Origin: Candidatus Poribacteria bacterium
GTDB lineage: Bacteria > Poribacteria > WGA-4E > WGA-3G
Reading direction: 5' to 3'
NCBI GenBank assembly: GCA_009839745.1
Contig: VXPE01000112.1
Coordinates: forward strand, 1-64,000
DNA: 64,000 nucleotides
Positions 12,274 to 13,553 of the stretch are shown here, one piece after another. The notes under the pieces are model-generated. The model was not told the origin of the DNA. It saw only the letters and a list, made by a program, of their open reading frames with translations, and did not search any database. Each line of letters begins with the position of its first letter. Within the stretch, counting starts at the first letter, position 1. The translations under genes and the position numbers were made by a program.

Positions 12274-12338
12274 TGTTCCTTGCGGTTCGGTTCGGTGGGT
12301 TTCAAGTTTGACGTTTTTCCGCAAGGTAAAATTAAAAA
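12267..12338 (+). repeat. MITE-like element, type A, between lpxA and lpxI
   Basis: This 72-base element begins TTTTTAATGTTCCTTGCGG (12267-12285) and ends CCGCAAGGTAAAATTAAAAA (12319-12338), a near-perfect inverted repeat of about 19 bases. The left arm contains the lpxA stop codon TAA. The right arm contains the GCAAGG ribosome-binding site of lpxI and runs into its ATG. In mRNA the two arms would pair and cover the lpxI start. Confidence 0.85.
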
Positions 12339-13141
12339 TGGAAAAATTGGGTATCATTGCAGGCGCAGGTGAACTCCCCGTGCTATTAGCACGTGCCGCT
12401 GCTGCCCATGAACGACAACCCGTTATCATCCAAATCACCAAGTCTGATGCGCAACGCTTTGCCGGAATCGAATGTGAACTTCATACGTATGGAGTCGGTC
12501 AGATTCAAAAGATCGCCCGAACCCTTCTCAATTCAGGCGTGAAAGAGGTTGTGATCATCGGGAAAGTCGAAAAAAATATCCTCCTTCGTCCCTTTCAAAT
12601 TGATACGACCACGATTAAAATTCTGGTCCAGAACCGGCGCGAAAAACCTTCCGTAATCGTCAACGCTGCCCTTAACTATCTCGAATCTGTCGGACTTACC
12701 ATCCTCACCCAAGATCGATATCTCCAACACCTGCTTCCACAGCCCAGCGTTTTAACAACTCGACAACCGACCGCGAGCCAATGGGCAGATATTAAACTCG
12801 GCATTAGTATCGCTCGCCAGATAGCAAACATGGATATTGGGCAAACGGTTGCGGTTAAGAATCAGATTGTGCTTGCTATGGAAGCCATTGAAGGAACGGA
12901 CGCGACTATTCAGAGGGGCGGAAATTTGGGAAAGCAGGGAATCGTTGTTGCGAAAGCCGCAGCTGAGAACCACGATTTTCGGATTGATGTGCCGACGGTG
13001 GGACTGCAAACACTTGAGGTGCTGCATGACGTTAAAGCGAGTGTGTTAGCAGTGGAAGCGTGCCGAACTTTTATGATAGATACCGATGTGCTGATTCAGC
13101 AAGCAGACCGCTGGAAGATCGCAATCGTTGCTGTAAAGTAA
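12338..13141 (+). CDS. lpxI: UDP-2,3-diacylglucosamine pyrophosphatase LpxI
   Basis: This 267-residue protein begins MEKLGIIAGAGELPVLLARA, the N-terminal signature of the LpxI (DUF1009) family. Later motifs QNQIVLAMEAIEGTDATI-like and VDVPTVGLQT match the catalytic domain. LpxI hydrolyses UDP-2,3-diacyl-GlcN to lipid X and replaces LpxH where that enzyme is absent. I chose the ATG at 12338; an upstream in-frame TTG at 12308 would translate the repeat element. It completes the visible lipid A operon. Confidence 0.94.
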   Translation: MEKLGIIAGAGELPVLLARAAAAHERQPVIIQITKSDAQRFAGIECELHTYGVGQIQKIARTLLNSGVKEVVIIGKVEKNILLRPFQIDTTTIKILVQNRREKPSVIVNAALNYLESVGLTILTQDRYLQHLLPQPSVLTTRQPTASQWADIKLGISIARQIANMDIGQTVAVKNQIVLAMEAIEGTDATIQRGGNLGKQGIVVAKAAAENHDFRIDVPTVGLQTLEVLHDVKASVLAVEACRTFMIDTDVLIQQADRWKIAIVAVK

Positions 13142-13142
13142 C

Positions 13143-13173
13143 AAAAAACGGAGGTAGTAAATAACCACCTCCG
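13143..13173 (-). terminator. Rho-independent terminator of the selenoprotein gene
   Basis: On the minus strand CGGAGGT, an 11-base loop and ACCTCCG form a seven-pair stem followed by TTTTTTG. It lies 19 bases past the stop of the small selenoprotein gene and directly after lpxI, which converges on it. Confidence 0.8.
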
Positions 13174-13191
13174 CCTTTCCAAAGACGCTGG

Positions 13192-13425
13192 CTACGCCGC
13201 TGCGTCCATTGCGGCTGTTATCTGCTCCGTCGTCGGAAACTGTCCGGTTTCTAACTTTGAATAGAGCAGTGTCCCGTTCAGCGAGACTTCAAAAGCCCCA
13301 CCACTACCAGGGATTAGATCAACTGTCTTAACCGCCGCACCATATTTCTGTTTCAAGGCATCTGCCAAACTGGCTGCCCGTGGTTGGTAGTTTCAGGCGG
13401 TGCAGTATTCGATTCTCACTTCCAT
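13192..13425 (-). CDS. SelW/Rdx-family selenoprotein with in-frame TGA (Sec)
   Basis: The gene starts at ATG 13425 behind a strong GGAGG and ends at TAG 13192. Codon 11 is TGA (13395-13393). Read as selenocysteine it gives a 77-residue protein with the redox motif CTAU (C8 to U11), followed by NYQPRAASLADALKQ, then PGSGGAFEV and KLETGQFP. These are the signatures of the Rdx thioredoxin-like family (SelW/SelT/SelH and bacterial CxxC or CxxU homologues). A stem-loop just downstream of the TGA (13379-13357, GUU loop beginning 23 bases after it) is a plausible bacterial SECIS. Conservation resumes in frame after TGA, so this is not decay. The fold implies thiol or selenol redox activity; the substrate is unknown. 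Confidence 0.88.
13357..13379 (-). promoter_or_regulatory. Candidate bacterial SECIS element
   Basis: On the minus strand, beginning 14 bases after the TGA, GGCA pairs with UGCC and GCCA pairs with UGGC. A three-base AGA bulge interrupts the 3' side and the apical loop is GUU. The loop G lies 23 bases from the UGA, inside the range used by SelB-dependent bacterial SECIS elements. The fold was drawn by eye. Confidence 0.5.
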
Positions 13426-13553
13426 GGATATTGTTCCTCCTCAATTAATTTTGACATTGCCTGTCGCCATAAATTCAATCGTCTGTTTTAAAATTTTACA
13501 ACAAACAGTGGAAAATTGCAAATTTTTTCGTTCCTTTACAAATTAGTGAAGAT

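Follow-up and report, generated by a model that had tools for sequence, protein, structure and literature searches.

A SelW-like gene of Candidatus Poribacteria with an in-frame UGA at the CxxU position, predicted to encode a selenoprotein

The locus at 13192-13425 raises the question of how a UGA triplet near the start of a short reading frame is decoded: as selenocysteine (Sec), as a stop, or as some other residue. The window analysed here, a stretch of 64,000 nucleotides, is contig C112 of a Candidatus Poribacteria metagenome-assembled genome (MAG) of 5.04 Mb (96% complete). A sequence-only reading of this window had proposed an unannotated selenoprotein gene of the SelW/Rdx type. On the sequence evidence described below, this gene of Candidatus Poribacteria almost certainly encodes a genuine selenoprotein of the SelW-like (Rdx) family, the UGA at 13395-13393 being read as selenocysteine.

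The features of the locus are collected in Table 1. The ATG and the strong ribosome-binding site, proposed with no strand given, were both found on the minus strand; no such reading frame was found on the plus strand of 13192-13425. Translation with TGA as U gives MEVRIEYCTAUNYQPRAASLADALKQKYGAAVKTVDLIPGSGGAFEVSLNGTLLYSKLETGQFPTTEQITAAMDAAA. The sole internal stop of this frame is the UGA, which falls exactly at CTAU (C8-T-A-U11), in agreement with the CTA-TGA redox motif of the earlier reading, and the frame continues beyond it with no second stop. The Rdx signature is seen in the product as C-x-x-U after the first strand, GGAFEV, and LLYSKLETGQFP. The terminator claimed for the gene is also present, as a terminator-like hairpin between the gene and its convergent neighbor. 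This neighbor is presumably lpxI-like, a name that we take from the lpxC/fabZ-lpxA-lpxI order, and its adjacency to selW is kept in the genus and in part of the order. Being convergent, it is not an operon partner of selW/rdx; the gene flanking selW/rdx on its other side is divergent, so that no operon hints at the redox partner either.

Table 1. Features at the selW/rdx locus (positions in the window)
Feature	Position	Strand	Basis
selW/rdx gene, 77-codon Rdx-family selenoprotein (predicted)	13192..13425	minus	ATG 13425-13423, stop TAG 13194-13192
In-frame UGA, residue 11, final position of the CxxU redox motif	13393..13395	minus	TGA in 78/78 phylum matches, Cys in distant homologues
Bacterial SECIS hairpin, GGGCAGCCA-GUU-UGGC(AGA)UGCCU	13356..13379	minus	fold and comparative support
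GGAGG ribosome-binding site	13436..13440	minus	sequence
Intrinsic terminator-like hairpin, 16 pairs and T6 run	13143..13179	minus	between selW/rdx and the convergent lpxI-like gene
LpxI-like gene, convergent neighbor	12308..13141	plus	ORF list

The prediction that automated tools will miss this gene was largely right. It is absent from the standard ORF list of the window, but NCBI has models for the family. In other records, the homologous gene is either unannotated or annotated with a start past the UGA, and the SelW genes of Epsilonproteobacteria were likewise overlooked by annotation (PMC4607533). The annotated CDS of the Rdx gene of Thermomicrobium roseum (NC_011961.1, 408173-408391) begins after the in-frame UGA, and therefore its N-terminus and redox motif are missing from the annotation.

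The read-through product belongs to the Rdx family by three models: Pfam Rdx (PF10262) at 88 bits (cut-off 22.6; E 5e-25), NCBIfam CXXU_selWTH (TIGR02174) at 77 bits (cut-off 34), and NCBIfam SelTWH_Campy (NF041051) at 90.2 bits (cut-off 88). In an alignment of 28 diverse members, in which U is written as C, the invariant columns are C8, U11, Y13, A17, G43, and F45. The product is predicted to adopt the thioredoxin-like α/β fold of SelW: the AlphaFold model built from 28 relatives had a mean pLDDT of 95.7, and the top 23 PDB matches of this model were all structures of the Rdx/SelW family. The best of them were SelW-related proteins of bacteria (2ojl, 2fa8, 2obk, 2p0g, and 3dex; TM 0.86-0.95); human MIEN1/C17orf37 (2ljk) and mouse SelW (2npb; TM 0.71) ranked behind. 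The bacterial structures, including 2oka, are of the Cys form. They share the fold with the model (TM 0.86-0.95) at approximately 30% identity, but have CxxC where the present protein has CxxU. A Cys lies opposite the UGA position in the alignments to 2fa8, 2ojl, and 2ljk. Mouse selenoprotein W, which shares the fold, carries the CxxU motif. Its SECIS, however, is of the eukaryotic type and lies in the 3' UTR (PMC1088965), whereas the hairpin found here is bacterial and lies within the coding region.

The sequence-only reading implied that selA, selB, selC, and selD should be present in the organism, and all four functions were found in the same genome. SelA (C50:615-1973, 599.8 bits) and selB (C22:3346-5241, 346 bits) are full-length. 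A tRNA-Sec with the anticodon UCA (C22:5350-5439, 78 bits; ARAGORN) follows the selB match at a distance of about 110 nt. An in-frame UGA is present in selD as well (C117:9834-10757, 360 bits), in the motif KCAGU. Therefore, the objection that selenocysteine machinery is lacking does not apply.

A possible SECIS had been placed within 13330-13400. The hairpin is real, but narrower than this range (Table 1). Its apical loop, GUU at 13370-13368, starts with a G located 22 nt after the UGA. Published criteria for bacterial SECIS elements are a loop of 3-9 nt with a G in the first two positions, an upper stem of at least 4 bp, a distance of 16-37 nt from the UGA, and a minimum free energy of -7.5 kcal/mol or lower (PMC13188914). 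The selW hairpin lies within every one of them, with its GUU loop, 22-nt spacing, and energy of -9.6 to -10.5 kcal/mol, and the minimum-energy folds of 65 of 76 distinct hairpin-giving sequences lie within those of loop and spacing. The folding energy of this 50-mer alone is not exceptional against shuffles (z -0.85), so that support for the SECIS comes from comparison. In some order-level Poribacteria, the minimum-energy fold departs from the consensus hairpin; the conserved loop sequence is retained.

Comparison of 62 distinct poribacterial sequences revealed that the codons forming the upper stem and loop show almost no synonymous variation: GCC for Ala in 54/54, AGT for Ser in 60/60, and TTG for Leu in 57/58. 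At the Leu codon four positions past this stretch, all six codons are used by the same 62 sequences. In the genes of the window, AGT accounts for 20% of Ser codons and TTG for 13% of Leu codons. In addition, the third position of the Ala (or Val/Ile) codon faces that of the Leu/Phe codon in the stem, and among 25 sequences from other phyla this pair is C-G in 20 and G-C in five, with no mismatch. Pairing in all 25 would have a chance of 1 in 53130 if phylogeny is ignored. The G-C type occurs once each in Bacillaceae, a Deltaproteobacterium, an Acidobacterium, Myxococcales, and Planctomycetota; its presence in separate groups suggests repeated compensatory changes. Rfam gave no match over the window at the gathering threshold, nor over the gene at E values up to 10. 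This is not counted against the SECIS, because these hairpins share little sequence.

An Rdx match was found in 78 of 85 genomes of the phylum, near-identical loci being present in MAGs of Candidatus Poribacteria. Each of the 78 matches has exactly one internal stop, a TGA, and in every fetched phylum locus that was read residue by residue it stands at the CxxU position. No Cys or Trp form of Rdx was found among the 85 genomes; Trp at the TGA, which had been named as a finding that would speak against selenocysteine, occurs in none of the 78 matches. The alignment bears out the UGA at CxxU. In distant homologues Cys is found at this site, both in bacterial and human relatives of solved structure and at a locus of Defluviimonas. 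SelD behaves in the same way, with one TGA in 76/76 above-cut-off matches of the phylum. In a second public collection, 67 of 68 relatives have TGA, the single exception being Defluviimonas with TGC; this search reaches close relatives only, and the ratio is no census. The TGA-bearing relatives include Gemmatimonadota, Acidobacteriota, Chloroflexota, Planctomycetota, Myxococcales, Calditrichia, Eisenbacteria, Binataceae, and one member of Bacillaceae. Past the UGA, protein-level conservation extends across phyla, and the frame holds no other stop.

Rdx was not found in seven of the 85 genomes, some of which are low-completeness drafts. Both genomes of one family (f6), G039 (95% complete) and G042 (76%), lack Rdx, SelA, and a full-length SelD, and G039 additionally lacks a full-length SelB. 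This is an apparent co-loss of Rdx and the machinery, by which the whole selenocysteine trait seems to be gone in one lineage. Another genome (G034, 95% complete) has the machinery with no Rdx detected. In G078 (96% complete), UGA-Rdx is present and a full selA was not detected, presumably owing to a gap in the MAG.

It should be mentioned that a 690-kb plasmid of Cytobacillus spongiae, which was isolated from a sponge, carries an unannotated UGA-containing SelW gene flanked by selD and selA (NZ_CP089998.1, 370656-370868). A similar gene in Rossellomorea aquimaris is 53% identical to the SelW of the window. A selenium module may have spread horizontally within Bacillaceae.

Further selenoproteins of the source genome were sought family by family. 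The search with AhpC-TSA (PF00578) gave 11 matches, five of them with in-frame TGA. One polypeptide (L163; G000:C41:155000-156900, frame opening at 339) contains two tandem peroxiredoxin domains, each with a UGA at its active-site position (FTGGUTTELC and FGRGUTAQVC). It is predicted to be a two-Sec protein, and its N-terminal stretch is likely a signal peptide. Three other peroxiredoxin-like loci, L161, L162, and L164 (G000 contigs C6, C131, and C50), have in-frame UGA in the motifs RTGTUGDC, GTWUPNS, and GGWUPFC; one of the three apparently follows a carboxypeptidase-regulatory-like domain. With at least five UGA-bearing peroxiredoxin-type domains counted in this one genome, SelW and SelD are apparently not the only proteins that the machinery serves. 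The AhpD/CMD search of the genome gave no UGA form, and that for GRDB gave a partial domain only, without UGA.

The window was also scanned by codon usage for other readthrough genes, and none of four further candidates was convincing. The TGA at 1867-1865 (minus strand) seems to be the ordinary stop that separates two genes in the same frame. Those at 62500-62498 and 60713-60711 were rejected, with only 9-11 codons preceding the UGA. The fourth, at 47074-47072 (minus strand), lies in a gene that we take to be sialate O-acetylesterase-like; it was rejected as a Sec codon, 15 of 15 relatives' copies having Trp there, and stems from either a nonsense mutation or faulty assembly.

This last case shows what the UGA of the Rdx gene would resemble if it had arisen in a Cys- or Trp-coding gene through nonsense mutation or faulty sequencing. 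The Rdx TGA is, however, of another kind than this non-Sec pattern: it occurs once in all the phylum matches, at the same codon wherever read, and again in all but one of the second-collection loci from many phyla. Such conservation makes a sequencing error impossible, and the probability left to error and nonsense mutation taken together is negligible. It is no more plausible that the downstream homology is the relic of a pseudogene, or that the gene yields a truncated 10-residue peptide. The standard ORF scan, which lists no gene here, would fit that view; the downstream frame, on the other hand, is conserved as protein across phyla with no other stops, and the synonymous sites are frozen precisely where the hairpin sits.

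A lineage-specific reassignment of UGA to Trp or some other amino acid, with selenium not involved, is also very improbable, if slightly less so than these two. The in-frame UGAs themselves are all that speaks for it. Elsewhere in the window, UGA serves as an ordinary terminator, as at 1867-1865 between two genes, and none of the Rdx homologues carries Trp at the UGA position. Furthermore, a UCA tRNA with the architecture of tRNA-Sec adjoins selB, and the UGAs of the other genes stand at the redox Cys positions of peroxiredoxin-type domains.

Bacterial SelW-like selenoproteins (PF10262, CxxU) were reported by Zhang and Gladyshev and colleagues in 2005, 2006, and 2008 (PMC1088965, PMC1794560, and PMC2398784); the family has thus already been described, and is abundant in marine samples. 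In a 2026 review, the SELENOW-like protein (PF10262, CxxU) is classed as predicted with high confidence. The present gene agrees with the described ones in family, in the CxxU position, and in having an in-frame UGA followed by a bacterial SECIS, and differs in the host phylum. It resembles the SelW of Epsilonproteobacteria in matching NF041051 above the cut-off, a likeness that rests on the family model, and differs from it in phylum. A literature search found no paper naming both Poribacteria and "selenoprotein", which reflects the literature covered as much as novelty. It is well supported that the poribacterial SelW is an ordinary addition to the already described bacterial family.

In the selenocysteine reading, SelB-GTP carrying Sec-tRNA(UCA) would bind the stem-loop just 3' of the UGA and deliver Sec. 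The product would be a 77-residue thioredoxin-fold protein, whose Cys8-Thr-Ala-Sec11 motif probably alternates between the reduced state and a selenenylsulfide. Such cycling is the expected behavior of CxxU Rdx proteins, and biochemically a SelW-like protein is no surprise here. The partner might be thioredoxin, glutathione, or another thiol. As a small thiol/selenol oxidoreductase, the protein would take part in the redox defence of this bacterium, which lives in association with sponges.

A gene missed by a standard ORF scan is thus recovered, and a whole uncultivated phylum seems to keep the selenocysteine code. SelA and SelB were found to co-occur in most sponge-symbiont bins of a 2017 metagenome study (PMC5649159); that machinery may be used by the UGA genes described here. 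For SelW and SelD, the UGA form was the only one found, and the SelW SECIS is frozen at synonymous sites. We consider it an even call whether selenocysteine use is an ancestral and near-obligatory trait of the phylum Poribacteria, and whether a wider redox selenoproteome, including the predicted exported two-Sec peroxiredoxin fusion, may serve oxidative defence in sponge hosts.
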